Of a stretch of DNA of 64,000 bases, positions 13,373 through 56,489 are shown one piece after another; positions within the stretch are counted from its first letter, which is position 1, and the number at the start of each line of letters is the position of its first letter. Source of the DNA: Unio delphinus (Eukaryota; Mollusca; Bivalvia; Unionida; Unionidae). The position numbers were made by a program, and so were the translations under genes. A model generated the notes under the pieces. The model did not search any database and had not been told where the DNA came from. It saw only the letters and a program-made list of their open reading frames with translations. The DNA lies in assembly GCA_029339505.1 (NCBI GenBank), contig JAQISU010000097.1, positions 2,491,001 to 2,555,000 on the forward strand. The letters run 5' to 3'.

Positions 13373-15910
13373 GTAAACTTAAACTATTGTATACTCATTG
13401 AATGTGTTCACTAGTAGATATAGGTTAAACTATTGTATACTCATTGAATGTGTTCACTAGTAGATATAGGTTAAACTATTGTATACTCATTGAATGTGTT
13501 CACTAGTAGATATAGGTTAAACTATTCTCTACTCATTGAATGTGTTCACTAGTAGATATAGGTTAAACTATTCTCTACTCATTGAATGTGTTCACTTGTA
13601 GATATAGGTTAAACTATTCTATACTCATTGAATGTGTTCACAAGTAGATATAGGTTAAACTATTCTATACTCATTGAATGTGTTCACTAGTAGATATAGG
13701 TTAAACTATTCTATACTCATTGAATGTGTTCACTTGTAGATATAGGTTAAACTATTCTATACTCATTGAATGTGTTCACTAGTAGATATAGGTTAAACTA
13801 TTCTATACTCATTGAATGTGTTCACTAGTAGATATAGGTTAAACTATTCTATACTCATTGAATGTGTTCACTAGTAGATATAGGTTAAACTATTCTATAC
13901 TCATTGAATGTGTTCACTAGTAGATATAGGTTAAACTATTCTATACTCATTGAATGTGTTCACTTGTAGATATAGGTTAAACTATTCTATACTCATTGAA
14001 TGTGTTCACTTGTAGATATAGGTTAAACTATTCTATACTCATTGAATGTGTTCACTTGTAGATATAGGTTAAACTATTCTATACTCATTGAATGTGTTCA
14101 CTTGAAGATATAGGTTAAACTATTGTATACTCATTGAATGTGTTCACAAGTAGATATAGGTTAAACTATTGTATACTCATTGAATGTGTTCACAAGTAGA
14201 TATAGGTTAAACTATTCTATACTCATTGAATGTGTTCACTAGTAGATATAGGTTAAACTATTCTATACTCATTGAATGTGTTCACTAGTAGATATAGGTC
14301 AAACTATTGCATACTCATTGAATGTGTTCACTAGTAGATATAGGTTAAACTATTCTATACTCATTGAATGTGTTCACTAGTAGATATAGGTTAAACTATT
14401 CTATACTCATTGAATGTGTTCACTAGTAGATATAGGTTAAACTATTCTATACTCATTGAATGTGTTCACTAGTAGATATAGGTTAAACTATTCTATACTC
14501 ATTGAATGTGTTCACTAGTAGATATAGGTTAAACTATTCTATACTCATTGAATGTGTTCACTAGTAGATATAGGTTAAACTATTCTATACTCATTGAATG
14601 TGTTCACTAGTAGATATAGGTTAAACTATTCTATACTCATTGAATGTGTTCACTAGTAGATATAGGTTAAACTATTCTATACTCATTGAATGTGTTCACT
14701 TGTAGATATAGGTTAAACTATTCTATACTCATTGAATGTGTTCACTTGTAGATATAGGTTAAACTATTCTATACTCATTGAATGTGTTCACTTGTAGATA
14801 TAGGTTAAACTATTCTATACTCATTGAATGTGTTCACTTGTAGATATAGGTTAAACTATTCTATACTCATTGAATGTGTTCACTAGTAGATATAGGTTAA
14901 ACTATTCTATACTCATTGAATGTGTTCACTAGTAGATATAGGTTAAACTATTCTATACTCATTGAATGTGTTCACTAGTAGATATAGGTTAAACTATTGC
15001 ATACTCATTGAATGTGTTCACTAGTAGATATAGGTTAAACTATTCTATACTCATTGAATGTGTTAACTAGTAGATATAGGTTAAACTATTCTATACTCAT
15101 TGAATGTGTTAACTAGTAGATATAGGTTAAACTATTCTATACTCATTGAATGTGTTCACTAGTAGATATAGGTTAAACTATTCTATACTCATTGAATGTG
15201 TTCACTAGTAGATATAGGTTAAACTATTCTATACTCATTGAATGTGTTCACTAGTAGATATAGGTTAAACTATTCTATACTCATTGAATGTGTTCACTAG
15301 TAGATATAGGTTAAACTATTCTATACTCATTGAATGTGTTCACTAGTAGATATAGGTTAAACTATTCTATACTCATTGAATGTGTTCACTAGTAGATATA
15401 GGTTAAACTATTCTATACTCATTGAATGTGTTCACTAGTAGATATAGGTTAAACTATTCTATACTCATTGAATGTGTTCACTAGTAGATATAGGTTAAAC
15501 TATTCTATACTCATTGAATGTGTTCACTAGTAGATATAGGTTAAACTATTCTATACTCATTGAATGTGTTCACTAGTAGATATAGGTTAAACTATTCTAT
15601 ACTCATTGAATGTGTTCACTAGTAGATATAGGTTAAACTATTCTATACTCATTGAATGTGTTCACTAGTAGATATAGGTTAAACTATTCTATACTCATTG
15701 AATGTGTTCACTAGTAGATATAGGTTAAACTATTCTATACTCATTGAATGTGTTCACTAGTAGATATAGGTTAAACTATTCTATACTCATTGAATGTGTT
15801 CACTAGTAGATATAGGTTAAACTATTCTATACTCATTGAATGTGTTCACTAGTAGATATAGGTTAAACTATTTCATACTCATTGAATGTGTTCACAAGTA
15901 GATATAGGTT
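13373..15910. repeat. Satellite array, 46-bp unit, about 55 copies
   Basis: The unit is 46 bases, with 'aaactattctatactcattg' followed by 'aatgtgttcactagtagata' and 'taggtt'. Copies are nearly identical. Changes concentrate at 'ctattStatac' and at the middle of the hexamer ACTAGT (also ACTTGT, ACAAGT). Edge copies are more diverged than interior ones, as expected from unequal exchange. There is no coding potential. It lies between the orphan exons at 4.8 and 16.2 kb. Confidence 0.97.
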
Positions 15911-20907: not shown

Positions 20908-34062
<13,155 letters not shown>

Positions 34063-48740: not shown

Positions 48741-49066
48741 TACGAAGGACAATCGAATGATCAAAGGTATCCAATTTATAGAATGTCAAAGACAGGGGTG
48801 GATGGAACCCATTGAGGGGAATCACGGAGCAAATCCCTTTAATTGCTCTGCATTTTAAGCGTTTCTAGGGGATAATGTTAACCTTATCATTACAAAGCAA
48901 ATATACTCAAGCAAACGTTCGCTTGTTATGTGCAAACATTGTACCAGGTCCCGAGTTTGGTTGTTGTTGTTCTTATTGTTCACTTGAAGATTTATATTTA
49001 CGACTATGTTTGTGATGAATTATATAGACACATACCAAGTATCATAATCCCGATTTGCAATTGCAG

Positions 49067-49315
49067 AATATAGACTTGAACTCGAAGCTTAAGGAACCGC
49101 AGCCATCTTTCATCCAGCAGGAAGATAATGAAGCTGACTTTTACAACAACATTTTAACGAATGGCCTTCGGTATGAGTACGCCATCAAGAGCGGAGAAAA
49201 AGACCCAGATATTTACAAACGGACGCAAACCAAGTATCCGAAACATGTACTCATTATTGGCGCAGGAATGTCTGGGTTGGTCGCCGCTTATGAACTTGAG
49301 CAAGTGGGACACCAG
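49067..49315 (+). CDS. LAAO copy 2, exon with FAD-binding motif
   Basis: Bordered by 'tgcaattgcag' and 'gtaagc'; exits in phase 0 exactly like copy 1. Encodes QQEDNEADFYNNILTNGLRY and later HVLIIGAGMSGLVAAYELEQ, colinear with copy 1 but diverged. At the position of the copy-1 ATG this copy reads ATA, so translation must begin in an upstream exon or the copy has lost its start. The rest of the exon is intact and conservative, which argues for selection. Confidence 0.75.
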
Positions 49316-49517
49316 GTAAGCAACTCACATTCGAGTCAACATTATTTATTTAAAAGCGTGCTTTAAAAATGATTTAGTATGAATAAATATCATTTACTAC
49401 TGACACGCTTTTTGATCCGAGAGGTGTACCGTTATAAGTGTTGTGTCAGGTTGGTGTGCCTTATCATAACCTTCTTCTCATTTGTTGCTATGAAAACGAA
49501 TTACTCATAAGTTAAGG

Positions 49518-49606: not shown

Positions 49607-49666
49607 CAAGCTTTCTTAAAAGAAGGTAGTGACTCATAACGGTGTACATACGGCTACATCTTGGGG

Positions 49667-49857
49667 AGCAGCAGAGGGGTAATCAGACCACTTTTACAAG
49701 CCTCTATTTTGTGAAAGAAGATTTTATTGATATTTACAAATTCACATCAACATACATGAGTGGGCGAACCATACAAATATAATCTGCGGACAAATTTGTA
49801 AAATAAACATTACCAATATGAAAACAAATCGTGGTTGAAATGCTAATCACGTTGGTG
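49667..49857 (+). repeat. Left inverted terminal repeat
   Basis: Pairs with the reverse complement of 56,275-56,467. Shared blocks include 'gtaatcagaccacttttaca', 'gaagattttattgatattta' and 'gtggttgaaatgcta'. Roughly one mismatch in eight by eye. Confidence 0.92.
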
Positions 49858-49882
49858 TAATTAAATAATTGAGTTATTGATA

Positions 49883-50756
49883 ATGTCAAACATCGAAGAA
49901 GCATATTCCGTTAGACTAGCTCGAGAGCGACTAGCAGCAATAATGAAATTTCTTCCCGTACGAGATAGCGTCAATCAAAAACTTCAACAACGATAAGAAT
50001 CTCAATTTGAATTCGTAACAGGTGTAGAACAGTTATTTAAACCAGTTACAACAGCTACTGAAAAAAACTGCAATGGTTACTGAAAGAGCTATATTAGGAG
50101 ATATTAAGAATGAAGAGGAATAAAGGTATTTTTCAGAGTTAAAAGAAACCGTTAATGCTATAAAGGCGTCACAACAAGTTACTGCTGCATTACCCCAACA
50201 AATTAAAGAAGCTGTGGAGTCTGATGTTAAAAATATTGTTGAGGAATTATCTAAACCAGAATTGAAAACTAAATATTTTACTCAGCAGGGCTATATGCAA
50301 GTTATAACCGATCCTATTAAAGTTGCTGCGGTGGGATATCAAATGCGGGATAATCATCTAAGTATTTCGCGAGCACAAGGGTATTTCACAAATTAATTTT
50401 AAAAAATATAAACGCGAATATGAAGATTTTGTTGAACGAGTTAATGAAATAAAAAATGTATTTCAACACCAACAAATCAGCAATCTCGACCACGACGGCA
50501 ACCATCACCCTAACCTAGTGTAACCAGAAGTGGTCTTAATATAGCAAGTGGTCTTATTACCTGTCCTAACAATATCATCGACGATGTATCCTGGTTGGAA
50601 GTTCTCGTAGATTGTAAACGAGATGGAAATAATTCTCCAGATATAATTAACGAAGCGGCAGATATTTGTCAACGATTATTTCAGGGTGGTAGTATGGATA
50701 TCGGTGTATATCGATCTCTTATTGATGAAATCATTGATGATTACCATAGTGATTAG
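49883..50756 (+). pseudogene. Element protein 1, unknown, frame-broken
   Basis: Starts at ATG 49,883 (MSNIEEAYSVRLARERLAAI) and can be followed through at least three frame changes and stops to a C-terminus YRSLIDEIIDDYHSD at 50,756, about 290 codons in all. The middle is charged and helical, possibly coiled-coil. The C-terminal DVSWLEVLVDCKRDGN segment is compact. By position (first gene, ahead of the capsid genes) it is probably a structural or packaging protein, but I do not recognise the family. Confidence 0.6.
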
Positions 50757-50787
50757 TTATTTTAGATAAAACGAACAATTATATAAC

Positions 50788-51243
50788 ATGATTATACATG
50801 ACCAACGACGACAACAAATCCGCGTGGTAAATTTACGATTACCTATATATAAGCTAGATTACGGAGATGGACTTGGAAATATTATTCACGGTTTATTTAC
50901 AAGAACGGCTCCCAGGGCTGTGCCAATAGCAAAACAATGATCGATGAAAGCTATCGACGTTATTGGCGATAAAGTTACTGGTGCTGTTGGTGATCTTGCA
51001 GGTAAAACATTTTCGGTGGTCGAAGATAAGTTAGCAAAATTAATAGGCAAACCTCAGACACCAAAAGCAATCCAATCTGTGAAATTACCCAGTACTGAAG
51101 TTATGCCTGCAAATGTCAATAAAGTAATCAATCAAACTGTAAATAAAAAAGTAGCGGAGCTGGCTGGTGTATCTGATAAACAAAGAGAAAAAAATATAAC
51201 TGCCAGTCTAGTAGCAGGAAGTGGTCTTCGTTTTAGACGATAA
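50788..51243 (+). pseudogene. Element protein 2, candidate membrane-active minor capsid (pVI-position)
   Basis: A 151-codon frame interrupted once by TGA at 50,938. The N-terminal part has GDGLGNIIHGLF, an amphipathic glycine/hydrophobic stretch. The middle has KAIDVIGDKVTGAVGDLAGK and the end is GSGLRFRR. An amphipathic N-terminus plus basic tail just before the capsid gene recalls adenovirus pVI-like proteins of adinto-type elements. The assignment rests on position and composition only. Confidence 0.5.
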
Positions 51244-51291
51244 CCAATTATAAAAGAAAATGTTTAAACGCGAATCCAACACCGCAATAAC

Positions 51292-52569
51292 ATGGATGCA
51301 CCAATACGTTAGGATGAATCTGTGCGTGATTATCAACATTATTATCATGACGCACCTGCGCCTGATGCAACTGGAAGAATTGAATTACGAGTTCAGGATA
51401 CTGGTATATATTTCTTGCCCGCTGAGGCATTTATCGAAATCGAAGGCAGACTTTTACAGGCAGATGGTACAATTATGGAATTGGTGATCGAGTTGGTTTT
51501 GTTAATAACGGTATTATGGCGTTATTGAAAAGCGCTCTATATACGATTGACGGAAGAGAAATTGAAACAATTCATGAGAATGTTGACAACAATAATAGGT
51601 TTAGCACGATATTCAGATGATTACTCAAGATCCGCTGGTCCGTCAATGATGATCAACCAGAAAGCAGAAACGTAAGAATGAACGCAGCTGGGGACGCATT
51701 TACATCGATGAATGAAAATCATAATTTGGGATTTGCAGCTTACAGAGCAATGTTGAATGATAATGAAGAATTTTCATGCGCAATTCCACTATCTCATATA
51801 TTTGGATTTTGCAGAGGGGTTTGAAAGGTTATATTTGGCGCTAAACATACAATTGTACTTGTAAGAAAGGAGGATACCGACGCTATCTGGCGACAAAACA
51901 CAGTTGCTTATGCTAAAGTAACGCTAACAAAACTATCGATGTGGATGCCGGTAATGACTCCGTCAATTGCTGAAGAACAGCGACAACATTCCTTTATGGA
52001 CTCGGGTGATAAATCGTTGTTATCATGGTTGTCAATGACCATAGATATTTTTCCTGGTCACGCCTCTGGATTATTCACATGTCAGATAACATCACAGCAT
52101 GGATTGTCAACACCGCGACATATTTTTTTCGTATTTCAGGAAAATACCCGATTAAATAATCAGGAAGGAAATCCCATGGTATTTGACACACTTAATGTTT
52201 TCGAAGCTGCGCTTCAGATAAACGGGCATCAAGAACCATTGAAGATATCTTAATAAATTTTGAACATAATCAAGTTACACGTGCATATCATCGTTTGATG
52301 ACATATATGGGACGCGACCGAAATATTGATACTGGTTTGTTGATATCTCAGCGGGATTTACAACGCTATACCCAATTTATTACTTTTCACTAGAACATTT
52401 AGATCTATATAGGCAATCTGTTCTTGATATACACTTTCGAGCTCGTGTAGGTCAGTTTCCCGTTGACGGTTTTAGAGCAATTGCTCTCATTCTCAGTGAT
52501 AAGATGATGTTACTTGAAGGTACTGATGGGCGAATGAGAGTCGTTGACGCTCCGGTTGAAAACATGTAA
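51292..52569 (+). pseudogene. Jelly-roll major capsid protein remnant
   Basis: About 425 codons from ATG 51,292 to TAA 52,567-52,569, broken by an early TAG (about 51,310), a frameshift near 51,478 and further lesions. Recognisable pieces are RIELRVQDTGIYFLPAEA, FVNNGIMALLKSALYTIDGR, AIPLSHIFGF, VTLTKLSMWMPVMTPS, and a C-terminal ALILSDKMM-like strand (here AIALILSDKMMLLEGTDG). Together these match the capsid protein family of metazoan Polinton-like elements. It would form the virion shell. The intact middle section is the 104-codon stretch 51,939-52,253. Confidence 0.72.
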
Positions 52570-52598
52570 ACAATTAGATCAATCACGTTATTAATAAA

Positions 52599-52829
52599 AT
52601 GTCATACAATCACGCTAATGTCACTCGGACTCATGGTCAGGTGAAAAAATTACAATCAAAAAACGCAAGCACATATGGGGCAACAATAACGTTAAAGCAA
52701 GACAAGATTGCTAGTGGTAGTCCAAATAAACTGTCAGTGACTAAAACCCAACTTAACCACTTCAATAAGGCACTAAAAGCAAAAACTGGTGTTCAATTTA
52801 ATTTTCCTCCATCCGCAGTTAAAATATGA
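52599..52829 (+). CDS. Element small basic protein, intact
   Basis: 76 codons, one of the few uninterrupted genes of the element. Lysine-rich, with SVTKTQLNHFNKALKAKTGV near the end. Its stop overlaps the start of the next gene (ATGA at 52,826). Location among capsid genes suggests a virion component. No family is recognised. Confidence 0.55.
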   Translation: MSYNHANVTRTHGQVKKLQSKNASTYGATITLKQDKIASGSPNKLSVTKTQLNHFNKALKAKTGVQFNFPPSAVKI

Positions 52830-52933
52830 TTAAATCAGGTGGTACATTTCCTCCTAAAGCAGCCGCGTTGGGTGCTATTGGAAGCGCTGCTGTAATGGCG
52901 TTAAAGAAAGCTACTGGAAATGGATACAAATAA
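52826..52933 (+). CDS. Element 35-residue hydrophobic peptide
   Basis: ATG overlaps the previous stop by four bases. The peptide has KAAALGAIGSAAVMALKKAT, a glycine/alanine-rich membrane-compatible helix flanked by lysines. Small hydrophobic proteins of this kind are common in Polinton-like elements. Too short for homology. Confidence 0.45.
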   Translation: MIKSGGTFPPKAAALGAIGSAAVMALKKATGNGYK

Positions 52934-52941
52934 AGGGGGAA

Positions 52942-53450
52942 ATGTCTAAAACTACCAGGCAGTCGTTTCACTCGTTATGGAAGCGGCCTGAGACTACCAT
53001 TGAGTATTTACTCGTAACACCATTGTCAAATTTTGATTTGATCGATGCTGCTAAAAAATAAAAATAAAATACTTCAGAAGTGTTTTTATTTAAATCCGAG
53101 ATCAATTACCACAACAACCTAACAATATTGAAACCGGTATCATTAATCTCGATAACAGCACCAGAACTGGAACTCACTGGGTTACATATGCGATTGATCC
53201 ACGTGGAATTGTTTATTTTGATTCATACGGGTTAGCACCACCTGAAGAATTTATGCGTTATATTAATCGATTCAATTTTCCTTGCTGGTAATCAACACTA
53301 CCAACACAGACAATAACCGATCCACCAATATGCGGCCAAGAAGTGATTAACATCCTTGAAGCTATATCAATATCAACTAAACAACCCCATAAGATCGTAC
53401 ACGAGTATACCAACAACAACGTTTTTAAAAGATCTAAATGCATATGGTAG
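52942..53450 (+). pseudogene. Adenain-like capsid maturation protease remnant
   Basis: Begins SKTTRQSFHSLWKRPETTIE with PLSNFDLIDAAKK, then stops and a frame change. It continues as RTGTHWVTYAIDPRGIVYFD (catalytic His in HW, then the D-x-x-G strand), a TAA after FNFPCW, and PPICGQEVINILEAI (catalytic Cys after the conserved Pro-Ile). This is the order of adenovirus-type C5/Ulp1-like cysteine proteases that cut capsid precursors in Polintons and adintoviruses. Catalytic residues survive but the frame is dead. Confidence 0.75.
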
Positions 53451-53587
53451 ATATTTGGGGAAGATCTCTCTCGAGTCTAAAAAAGACTGAGGAAATATCA
53501 CACGAGAGTGTGAAAAAAATCGTCAAGGACGAAATATCCGAAAAGTTAAATCTTGCAAGTGTAGCTGTGGTAAAACAACGCGTGTGA
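53444..53587 (+). CDS. Element small ORF, possibly a truncated N-terminus
   Basis: 47 codons: MVDIWGRSLSSLKKTEEISH and on, ending in VVKQRV. It overlaps the protease end and the helicase Walker A region in another frame. Structural proteins of such elements may begin in this style, so it may be the start of a longer gene cut off by a deletion at about 53,540-53,570. It could equally be chance. Confidence 0.3.
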   Translation: MVDIWGRSLSSLKKTEEISHESVKKIVKDEISEKLNLASVAVVKQRV

Positions 53588-54290
53588 TTTAATTTTTTCG
53601 AGAGAATTCTGACGTGAACGTGCTAACACCCACACACAGACTTGCAAAGGAGATGACAACCCGAGGATTAAATTCTTGTACTTATCATAGTTTCTTGTGG
53701 ACTCCTGATCGAATGGGGACAAAATATATTAGGCGGATTACCATTTGGGACGAAATATGTACAGTATCGTTAACAATAAAAAAAAAAAATTTCTGGATTG
53801 ATTATTTGAAAAACAACACAGCTGTGATAATGTGCGGTGATCACGGTAAACAACCGCCGTTTACTGGATTATCTTCGCATGAATGGTTGAAACGAACTGT
53901 GGATTATTATGAAGAAATTATTACTGATCATATAGCACTTGATGAATCGTTTAAAACATAAAAAATCAACAAGATTACAACCGGATAAACTTCAATGTAA
54001 AATAGCGCGTAAAACGATTCGAGAGACTTCCATGGATGATTTTTGGGAAACATGGAAACCAAGCGATATGATAACATCAAGTTGAAACATAGTTAGATAT
54101 ACACTTCAGATGAAATTGTTTTGTGTGCACGAAGAAAAATTCCCGATGTTACTAGTCCCGTTGTGTTACAGACCAGCTGATACATGACTACAAAATATTG
54201 ATTTTGATATAACAGGAAGATCTGAGCGACGAAATCTTGTATTGAATGATACTGTACTAGTCAACATTGACGTTGTGAGAGATGCTGGCT
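53550..54290 (+). pseudogene. SF1 helicase remnant
   Basis: Walker A survives as CGKTTRVI at about 53,565-53,588, followed by a TAA. The 115-codon frame from 53,614 then carries LTPTHRLAKEMTTRGL (motif Ia), TIWDEICTV (Walker B), VIMCGDHGKQPP (motif III, GD-x-x-Q) and ALDESFKT. After another shift come LQPDKLQCKIARKTIRE and RSERRNLVLNDTVLVNIDVV. This is a superfamily 1 (Pif1/RecD-like) helicase, probably for element DNA replication. There is little or no protein in front of Walker A, so the N-terminus, or an upstream fused domain, seems missing. Confidence 0.65.
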
Positions 54291-54293
54291 GTG

Positions 54294-55058
54294 TTAAAAA
54301 ATCACGCCGTTGCAGTATTTTTCTGTAACTGCGTCAACAGGTTTCATATTGATTGTTCGAGTAATTTCATTATTCAACGCAGCTATCACATTTGGTGATC
54401 TTGCAACCCATTCACGAGATCTCCTATCTTGAGTAAATTCCTTCGTGTATTGATATCCAAATAGCCGATCAGGAAGTGTTCGATTTAATCCCTCAATAAT
54501 TGCCTGATCATAGTGAATTGCAGTATGCCTTCGTCTAATGGCGACATTATGTTGCTTCATTAATGACGATAGCACACCTTGAAATTCTTTGCCAGGATCA
54601 ACTTGTAATAGATTTGGCCATCGCAGACTACCTTGTGATCCAAGTCCTCGTCGATAAGTTCATTCAAATGCAGAAGCTACTTCTGATGCTGTCTTTGTCG
54701 ATAACGGTTCTGCTTCTTTGTATCAACTCGCAATATCAACTACAATTAAAGCGTATTTGTAAGTTCGTCTTTTGACAGTGTCATGTGGGAAAAATAATAT
54801 ACCCGCCTGGTGAACTTCATTAGGGACACTGGCCTCAAAATACGCGAAGTGAATTTTCTTAGGAGGTGGTAAATAAATTTGCCATATTGCATGTCTTGAT
54901 AACCAATCTGCCACATTAACCTGTTTTACCTTTGCTGCTTCAGCGATTTTATTAATATCTGATTTACCTTTCCAATATCGTTTCGGGGAATAATAAATGG
55001 ATTCCATAATAATATTAATCAGCTGATTAATTACCAGCTCGTGACGTTCCACTTCCAT
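54294..55058 (-). pseudogene. Retroviral-type integrase with two in-frame TGA stops
   Basis: One continuous minus-strand frame from ATG 55,058 to TAA at 54,294, interrupted only by two TGA codons in the core (54,722-54,724 region and about 54,662). The order is an N-terminal helical part, LSRHAIWQIYLPPPKKI, the first catalytic Asp in IVVDIAS, the second in VDPGKEFQG, and the Glu in QAIIEGLNRTL, 34 residues later. The C-terminal part reads EWVARSPNVIAALNNEITR. This is the rve-type DDE integrase of Polintons, which inserts the element and makes 6-bp target duplications. It ends against the helicase gene tail to tail. Confidence 0.85.
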
Positions 55059-55407
55059 GCACTAGTTTACCCTTCATCGCAGATTTTATTAACCAACTAG
55101 CTAACCTTTCCTTGAAAGATTTATCAGTGATAGAATTTAACGCGTGAAATAAATTCACATCTGAGATATGTCGTTGCTAAAGATTGCTACTTTAATAAGC
55201 AACATCATGAGCGTGGCATGCTTTATCGATAGCGTTTATAGTATATTTGCCTGGTTTGGGTTGATCTTGATTATCAAGCCGGATATCAAGTCGAGTTCCA
55301 TGGCAGCAGTAATTATATCCTGGAGGATGGTTTTTTCCAGGGCAATTAACCCACGGAACCCATGGAAGTTTTGTTAATTTTGCTGCGATATCAACCCCGT
55401 GCTGCAT
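55027..55407 (-). pseudogene. Parvovirus-type phospholipase A2 domain remnant
   Basis: From ATG 55,407 the frame reads LTKLPWVPWVNCPGK, PGYNYCCHGTRLDIRL, then DKACHAHDVAY, which holds the His-Asp pair of secreted/parvoviral PLA2. A TAA and a TAG follow, then SDVNLFHALNSITDKSFKER and a basic C-terminus ending at 55,027, overlapping the integrase start by 32 bases. In parvoviruses this domain breaches endosomes on entry; a similar role in this element is inferred. The calcium-loop glycine-proline is not intact (reads C-H-G). Confidence 0.72.
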
Positions 55408-55547
55408 TTTTTACTGACAAATTTAAATTTCTTTGTACCACATCGTTTACATTTACCAGTGAGCGATTGTCTGTTATTTTGTGTTGTAACGGTTGTTAAT
55501 GTATCTGTTGGGGTACGTGTCCTACATTTTACACAATATAAATTCAT
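55374..55547 (-). pseudogene. Zinc-ribbon protein, probably the N-terminus of the PLA2 protein
   Basis: 57 codons: MNLYCVKCRTRTPTDTL, then LTGKCKRCGTKKFKFVSKK. Two C-x-x-C pairs form a zinc ribbon. The frame overlaps the PLA2 frame near 'agtaaaaaatgcagcac' and would pass into it with a one-base shift. I infer an ancestral zinc-ribbon plus PLA2 fusion broken by a frameshift. Confidence 0.65.
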
Positions 55548-55570
55548 ATTTACTTAGTTTTTTATATAAT

Positions 55571-56236
55571 ATGGAAAGCACTGACTTTTCTAGGGTAAGA
55601 AAACGAGAACCGGTCAAACATCATGCGATGTTACCTAATAATGTTCGAATAATTATAATTGGTCCATCTGGAAGTGGTAAGACACAGTTGTTACTTAATC
55701 AGAAAATGGAGTGGTTGAAATGGGAAAAATTATATTTAATTGCTCCATCTGTTGATGATCAACGATGTTACAACGTGTTAAAGGATTTTAATGAAAGTGC
55801 AAAATCGTTGAACGATGATGAAGATGTTATCGATTTATTACCGATATCGATGAAGCTCCGAGTTTCGATTATCTTGATGGATCCGTTAACAATTTAGATG
55901 TGTACGATGATGTGATGTTGGATAAACAGGCAAACCCTGCCAGTATATTTTCACGCGGTAGGCATAAAAATACAGATGTGATTTATGTAACCCAGTATTA
56001 TACACAAATTCCCAAAGCGATAAGAAACAATTGTAATATTCTAGCGGCATTTAACGGAAATGATATTTACACGCTTAGACATATTCATCAGACCTGTTGC
56101 AGCGGAGATATGGAAATAAACAAAATAAAAAAAAATCTTTAGCCACGCTCAGTCAATCCCGCACGGATTTATAACGATAAATGTACATGATCCTCGAACA
56201 AAGTATCGAATCGGTCTCGATAAAATATTCGGTTAA
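55571..56236 (+). pseudogene. A32/FtsK-type genome-packaging ATPase remnant
   Basis: Starts MESTDFSRVRKREPVKHHAM. Walker A is GPSGSGKTQLLL (about residues 36-47). After a frameshift near 55,860, Walker B appears as VYDDVMLD, followed by ASIFSRGRHKNTDVIYVTQ, the sensor-like segment of HerA/FtsK packaging ATPases. A second shift near 56,140 leads to a C-terminus YRIGLDKIFG at 56,236, 38 bases before the right terminal repeat. It would pump element DNA into the capsid. Confidence 0.82.
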
Positions 56237-56274
56237 AACCGCAGCAGCCGAGTAGAGCGCGACGGTGGGAAAAT

Positions 56275-56467
56275 ACCAACGTGGTTAGCATTTCAACCAC
56301 GAACTTTTCCTTCATATCGATAATGTTTATGTTACAAATTTGGCTGGAGATTATATTTGTATGGTTAGCCCACTCTTGTCTGTTGATGTGATTTTCTAAA
56401 TATCAATAAAATCTTCTTTTACAAAATGGAGGCTTGTAAAAGTGGTCTGATTACCCCTTCTGCTGCT
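56275..56467 (-). repeat. Right inverted terminal repeat
   Basis: Reverse complement of the left repeat with scattered mismatches and small indels. Ends CTGCTGCT at 56,467, followed by aggggaaat; the left end is preceded by cttgggg. Confidence 0.92.
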
Positions 56468-56489
56468 AGGGGAAATTGGCAGTGCGAGA

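Follow-up and report, generated by a model that had tools for sequence, protein, structure and literature searches.

A probable internally deleted copy of a Tlr1-type virus-like element, with polymerase-helicase-bearing relatives in the same genome

Tlr1-like helicases, as characterised in PMC11071308, carry the palm of a protein-primed PolB DNA polymerase (pPolB) with the first Asp of its DTD motif replaced, together with a superfamily 1 (SF1) helicase and an HNH or GIY-YIG tail, and are predicted there to be active polymerases. The meldviruses have adenovirus-class virion proteins without, according to PMC11071296, a recognisable PolB or integrase. Here we describe an element at positions 49667-56467 of a 64,000-nucleotide stretch of DNA (the window; C104:2491001-2555000 of a 2.5-Gb genome, with labels such as C81, C108 and C250 denoting contigs of that host genome). 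It is very probably a dead Tlr1-type virus-like element, of an integrating kind with a double jelly-roll (DJR) capsid, that has been deleted internally.

Less damaged relatives in the same genome allow the comparison with described systems to be drawn. Like Tlr1 of Tetrahymena and those polinton-like viruses (PLVs) with pPolB-helicase fusions, they have an rve integrase and one large protein of palm, SF1 helicase and nuclease tail, as well as a motif C with its first Asp replaced and a DJR capsid (PMC11071308 and PMC12721341). Unlike Tlr1, they have a probable animal host, an adenain-type protease, a parvovirus-type phospholipase A2 (PLA2) and a fused protein of about 1200 residues, and their tail is HNH-like where GIY-YIG is reported for Tlr1. 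A polymerase and an SF1 helicase also share one protein in OmPLV of Oxyrrhis marina but, as PMC12721341 describes it, the OmPLV helicase is N-terminal, so that the order is reversed, an exonuclease is retained, the element is about 25 kb and the host is a protist. With Polintons/Mavericks and adintoviruses the family shares the DJR capsid, an adenain-type protease (near the cut-off), an A32-type ATPase, the rve integrase, a size of 15-20 kb and occurrence in animal genomes; theirs, however, is a pPolB without fused helicase, in contrast to the polymerase-SF1 helicase fusion and 5-bp target-site duplication seen here.

The window copy has no visible PolB, exactly as the first-pass annotation had stated. 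It keeps only the helicase end of the large protein: a remnant in two frames (53563-54304, plus strand; AAA_19) equivalent to residues 865-1125 of the 1217-residue polymerase-helicase of C108, with the N-terminal region and PolB palm absent and Walker A incomplete. At the junction (53563-53565) the start of a fibre-like open reading frame (ORF) is joined directly to the latter half of the helicase Walker A motif. We take this ORF to be fibre-like from its tail-fibre motif GDTMTGPLxM, and a Pfam search with it gave no match. An independent copy with like termini and different flanks, C81:300260-310734 (10.5 kb), is colinear with the window, the main blocks being 76-84% identical. It contains a further 4.37 kb between 53564 and 53566, that is, between protease and helicase, and 0.66 kb with an HNH-like ORF (HNH E 0.041, weak) at a second deletion point, 54276-54282. 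C81 is itself without the equivalent of window 55166-56266 (PLA2 and ATPase) and also without the palm. The third copy, C250, with a partial terminal inverted repeat (TIR) match (79% over TIR positions 4-82, one end only being found), follows the gene order of the extra C81 stretch: fibre-like pieces, a minus-strand repeat gene, a zinc-ribbon gene and the helicase N-terminal region. Since C250 has several of the extra C81 genes in the same order, the extra stretch is ancestral and was lost by the window copy. Relative to C81 and C250, one deletion took most of the fibre-like gene, a block of minus-strand genes and the front part of the helicase protein (about the first 860 residues by C108), and a second gap took the HNH-like ORF.

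Two genes of the stretch missing from the window deserve mention. An HNH_3 endonuclease gene (L010:1317-1673, minus strand; E 3.3e-12) has relatives in C108, C15 and C139. A conserved gene of approximately 60-residue repeats with a VMSS motif is seen at L010:532-1125 (minus), L016:1397-1965 and L023:2438-3047, lies on the minus strand in C81, and has a sub-threshold Pfam match only.

A genome search with the window helicase piece gave at least 150 scored matches, all with E 3.7e-42 or better and with open frames of up to 1228 residues (the 31,967 loose candidates behind this lower bound are not a copy count). Among 20 helicase loci from this search, a palm piece adjoins the helicase in 14. C250 reads on where C81 skips to Walker A, and its 172-residue piece (L023:990-1508), unmatched in C81 over residues 50-172, terminates in the motif-A-like ISVDMVACCP; a database search found two fragments, one reading ISVDMVACYPASF. 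This C250 palm is 50-51% identical to the palm in three uninterrupted ORFs of 1217 (C108), 1207 (C15) and 1202 (C139) residues. Each of these comprises an N-terminal region, a PolB palm with motif A ISIDISACYPGS and motif C RVATDS, a Walker A and a PIF1-like SF1 helicase. An HNH-like tail is included in the ORFs of C15 and C139, while the C108 tail is in another frame. The helicase part of the C108 protein matches AAA_19 (1.4e-13) and, below cut-off, UvrD_C_2 (1e-3). All three loci also hold integrase, PLA2, ATPase and capsid genes of the window kind. By architecture, the predicted parent element would work like one of Tlr1 type and has those of its defining features that could be compared, namely palm and SF1 helicase in one protein, a replaced motif-C Asp and an rve integrase; the polymerase-helicase tree was built from public homologues and a single sea slug protein, with an outgroup that is distant.

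The palm assignment was pursued by motif and by structure. When 42 public homologues (E<=1e-3) less the six shorter than 881 residues were taken with the three genome ORFs, a motif search recovered the motif C ATDS in 38 of 39 sequences (35/36 public, 3/3 genomic; P0003 unmatched). By motif search only, LNC was seen in 29 and H..HA/C in 37 of the 39, the feature compared being the vOTU protease domain before the palm. An AlphaFold2 model of P0003, a 69%-identical public homologue (30-sequence alignment), had a mean predicted local distance difference test score of 78.4 and a predicted TM-score of 0.64. With Foldseek against the PDB, PIF1/RecD2 helicases head the matches to this model (E to 3.9e-12), and phi29 DNA polymerase comes 46th (E 9.0e-7, TMt 0.32). 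Among the viral models of BFVD the best match is H6WBE3 (999 residues, E 4.4e-23), while mavirus DNA polymerase ranks 14th (E 2.8e-11, TMt 0.29) and that of a densovirus 42nd (E 3.8e-9).

Several observations weigh against our interpretation. By sequence, the palm region matched nothing in Pfam or the PDB; a PDB sequence search with a profile of 30 homologues returned helicases and a weak HNH nuclease only. The structural palm matches have low TM-scores, as expected where single domains are matched to a 1168-residue model, and VIA-align listed no polymerase, its rows lying mostly in residues 583-1071, so that the palm was barely tested. Among the copies of the window TIR subtype examined, none has a complete palm, that of C250 ending after motif A, and about 3.4 kb between ATPase and PLA2 in C250 is without explanation. 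The ORFs of about 1200 residues belong to sister subfamilies, with 59-63% identity in the helicase piece and a capsid block inverted with respect to the window. The expectation that longer copies with these ends would contain PolB is thus borne out only in part: C250 has a palm fragment as far as motif A, and the whole polymerase-helicase ORF is found in the other subfamilies.

The first-pass annotation had allowed for a distinct small lineage that naturally lacks a DNA polymerase, relying for replication on an SF1 helicase of its own and on a polymerase from the host or a helper. The absence of a polymerase from the window copy and its flank-sharing duplicate, of a palm from the 10.5-kb C81, and of a palm piece from six of the 20 helicase loci, window and duplicate included, would suit such a lineage. 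Yet the breakpoints of the window copy, C81 and C250 differ and each is without different pieces, which fits separate deletions; the window helicase starts inside Walker A; relatives carry the palm; and the copies seen with the window junction also have the window flanks and therefore represent one insertion. A naturally polymerase-less lineage is accordingly very unlikely, and deletion is the best explanation for the lack of a polymerase in the window copy. The case illustrates that deletion, combined with an enzyme missed by standard profiles, can make a virus-like element look 'polymerase-less'.

The same annotation had alternatively proposed an internally deleted Polinton. The internal deletion stands, given C81 and C250, but the Polinton parent does not. 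A derivative of a classical Polinton or adintovirus with a separate pPolB would have the same morphogenetic genes, the rve integrase, the AG...CT termini and the size of about 17 kb found in one less damaged relative. Against it, the palm of the relatives lies in one ORF with an SF1 helicase, as in Tlr1-type elements, its motif C reads xTDS, and the target-site duplication is 5 bp whereas that of Polintons is 6 bp. We therefore consider a classical Polinton or adintovirus origin improbable. The Tlr1-type parent, deleted internally to give the window copy, is preferred in what follows.

The element has the TIRs, and exactly the bounds, given in the first-pass annotation. The left TIR (49667-49857, plus strand) begins AGCAGCAGA and the right (56274-56467, minus strand) ends in TCTGCTGCT; pairwise alignment of these repeats of about 190 bp shows 171 of 189 aligned positions to be identical. 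These outermost letters are preceded by TGGGG (49662-49666) and followed by AGGGG (56468-56472), a target-site duplication with one mismatch. A sister copy at C104 2460489-2467206, about 80 kb off, resembles the window past both TIRs and has TGGGG on both sides; similarity also continues past the left TIR for a copy at C104 1982975. With these shared flanks, the two C104 copies go back to a single insertion by segmental duplication and do not count as separate insertions. There is nothing unusual about the window copy itself, a dead deletion derivative that segmental duplication later spread. The letters around the sister copy also allow a reading of 6-7 bp, which was dropped in favour of 5 bp after exact 5-bp duplications were found in C108 (CGACG), C15 (TAAGG) and C139 (GATGG); that of C81 is likewise 5 bp with one mismatch (AGTCT/AGTTT). 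Duplications of 5-7 bp are recorded, in PMC7805220, for some integrated PLVs with a tyrosine recombinase or RVE integrase.

A TIR search of the host genome gave 11 matches from 11 candidates. The TIRs on C103, C101 and C145 match that of the window and part of the same genes is present there, with no palm seen in a partial look at these loci. Several TIRs (L079:533-682, L080:1407-1579, L074:89-393) are bounded by inverted AGCAGCAGAG...CTCTGCTGCT, approximately 150-305 bp apart, resembling a miniature inverted-repeat transposable element at each end.

The structural genes of the window copy lie on the plus strand. First comes a remnant in at least two frames, possibly of a minor capsid protein (49892-50762), with 56-59% identity to a 371-residue C108 ORF which has no Pfam match, followed by a small-ORF remnant (50779-51240; 48% to a 174-residue C108 ORF) and the DJR-like capsid gene remnant (51289-52566), alignable to residues 11-474 of a 474-residue relative. 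Small basic ORFs at 52578-52933, possibly encoding a core peptide, are kept in C81, and the part at 52578-52829 also in C108. The adenain-type cysteine protease remnant (53068-53450) is kept in both. Beyond the helicase remnant are an rve/DDE integrase remnant (54318-55037, minus), 67.5% identical to a relative matching PF00665, then the PLA2 gene (55048-55410, minus), and an A32/FtsK-type packaging ATPase remnant in two frames (55559-56233, plus), 67-84% identical to a relative matching PF04665. The zinc ribbon placed next to the PLA2 by the first reading corresponds to a zinc-ribbon-like CxxC...CxxC piece upstream of it (55374-55553, minus), read from the letters and homologous in relatives. 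Stops or frameshifts break the capsid, protease, helicase, integrase, PLA2 and ATPase genes, the capsid gene being spread over three frames and the ATPase gene over two.

Window genes were profile-searched as separate open pieces and scores judged against Pfam curated cut-offs, which the capsid piece alone reached (DJR-like capsid model PF21738, E 1.9e-7, 31.1 bits, cut-off 27). Scores fell short for Phospholip_A2_4 (E 1.6e-4, 22.4 bits, cut-off 23.9), slightly so for Peptidase_C5 (4.3e-4, 20.5 bits, cut-off 21.3), and for AAA_19 (7.2e-4, 20.2 bits, cut-off 25.1) and Pox_A32 (1.5e-3, 18.5 bits, cut-off 22.8); rve models matched neither of two integrase pieces at E<=1, and a PHROGs search gave no useful match. 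The gene list is thus not fully secured from the window alone. It is secured by less decayed relatives, which match rve (7.2e-8), PLA2 (1.8e-10), A32 (2.6e-11) and DJR (3.3e-20) models as well as AAA_19 at the value given above; only the protease scores no better there (0.0069). Proteins of C108 show 44-84% identity to the window. The original capsid, protease, helicase, integrase, PLA2 and ATPase assignments therefore hold, weak window scores notwithstanding.

Recurrence of this gene set also bears on its nature. The surroundings are eukaryotic and rich in repeats, as they would be for a cellular gene cluster or for a chance nesting of unrelated transposons. Such an origin is excluded for practical purposes by the recurrence, at independent loci and between like termini, of this gene set with its order within modules unchanged.

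The sole less damaged relative measured, C108:4228661-4245711, spans 17.05 kb between TIRs identical at 243 of 245 positions. Its order is TIR; fibre-like gene, protease, core, major capsid protein and small ORFs, all minus; HNH_3 and zinc-ribbon genes, minus; polymerase-helicase, plus; integrase and PLA2, minus; ATPase, plus; TIR. The capsid module of the window copy and C81 is in the opposite orientation to that of C108 (L052, L054, L061, L062), C139 (L058) and C15 (L055), so that two orientations occur among subfamilies of one element within a single genome.

The PLA2 is genuine and conserved across the family. Like the parvovirus VP1 enzyme it has, in relatives, a Phospholip_A2_4 domain with a YCGPG calcium loop and ACxxHD; a PDB sequence search with it gave no match. 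YCGPG and ACHAHD are found in C108 and five other sampled copies. Three further copies have altered motifs, YCCHG/ACHAHD in the window, YCGPG/ACHLHN in C139 and YCGPG/SCHARD in C250, so that some of the expected active site is gone in each. Unlike in parvovirus VP1, the domain is encoded separately from the capsid protein, accompanied by a zinc ribbon, and belongs to a DJR element. Neither an NS1 nor a capsid gene of parvoviral kind was seen in the element, and parvovirus or bidnavirus features are absent in that the helicase is SF1/PIF1-like rather than an SF3 NS1 and the capsid DJR rather than single jelly-roll. The first-pass annotation had seen the PLA2 as linking parvovirus and Polinton strategies; the domain is real, but the link comes down to shared domain content, a phospholipase protein cluster being known from other polinton-like viruses and virophages (PMC7805220).

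A genome search with the PLA2 gave at least 150 matches among 30,252 loose candidates, and 108 of the 150 matches listed have one and the same score, 115.3 bits, without stops. Five of these loci (L074-L078) are identical across 72 residues and 93.6-98.5% identical over approximately 2.2 kb. Element ends are readable in L074, L076, L077 and L078 and have four different flanks, implying separate insertions. Together with the near-identical TIRs of C108, the shared PLA2 scores and separate insertions point to recent amplification of the sister subfamilies. If TIRs are identical at the start, the window copy, with 9.5% TIR divergence, would be older. Same-scoring helicase copies on C265 (two places), C334, C611 and C673 were set aside as proof of recent transposition, their right ends being identical including the flanks, and are duplicates. 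These ends, identical over 1.27-1.30 kb with flanks, represent large recent duplications or assembly haplotypes.

Outside this genome, one of the 42 public polymerase-helicase homologues carries a name, a protein of the sea slug Elysia crispata, and among 18 public capsid homologues the two named to species belong to Sinanodonta woodiana (69% across 62% of the query) and Potamilus streckersoni (46% across 46%), both freshwater mussels. This makes a freshwater mussel, or a close relative of one, the probable host. Scans of IMG/VR viral contigs with capsid, palm, helicase, polymerase-helicase and capsid-homologue queries found no relatives, which is weak evidence since the scans use few short patterns. 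A capsid protein with 97% identity to that of C108 is encoded on P0045, a JGI contig of 2.3 kb, which may be host DNA or a free element in an environmental sample.

In the less damaged relatives, the rve integrase would insert linear DNA with a 5-bp stagger, and the fused protein-primed-type PolB palm and PIF1-like helicase would copy the linear genome. The DJR capsid, protease and A32 ATPase would assemble and fill a particle, and the PLA2 would breach the endosomal membrane at entry. The window copy, its genes interrupted, is not expected to perform these steps. We suggest, tentatively and at somewhat less than even confidence, an animal (at least mollusc) lineage of Tlr1-type viruses with a parvovirus-type PLA2, still amplifying in the host germ line by means of its own polymerase-helicase and perhaps switching between life as a transposon and life as a virus. 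The less damaged relatives already place a ciliate and PLV replication plan in a probable animal genome, where it shows signs of having amplified recently; no description of a Tlr1-type plan in animals was found in the literature searched, the coverage of which was partial. What is new here lies in the family features (the probable animal host, PLA2, adenain-type protease, 5-bp duplications, module inversion and recent burst), not in the window copy, and the family offers material for asking whether such elements still form particles in animals.

Elsewhere in the window there are two tandem arrays, one of a 46-bp unit repeated 55 times with 98% matches (13379-15910), the other of a 20-bp unit repeated 102 times (28054-30097), where GC skew is near 0.5. 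Just upstream of the element, an ORF at 49055-49366 may resemble the N-terminus of an L-amino-acid oxidase.

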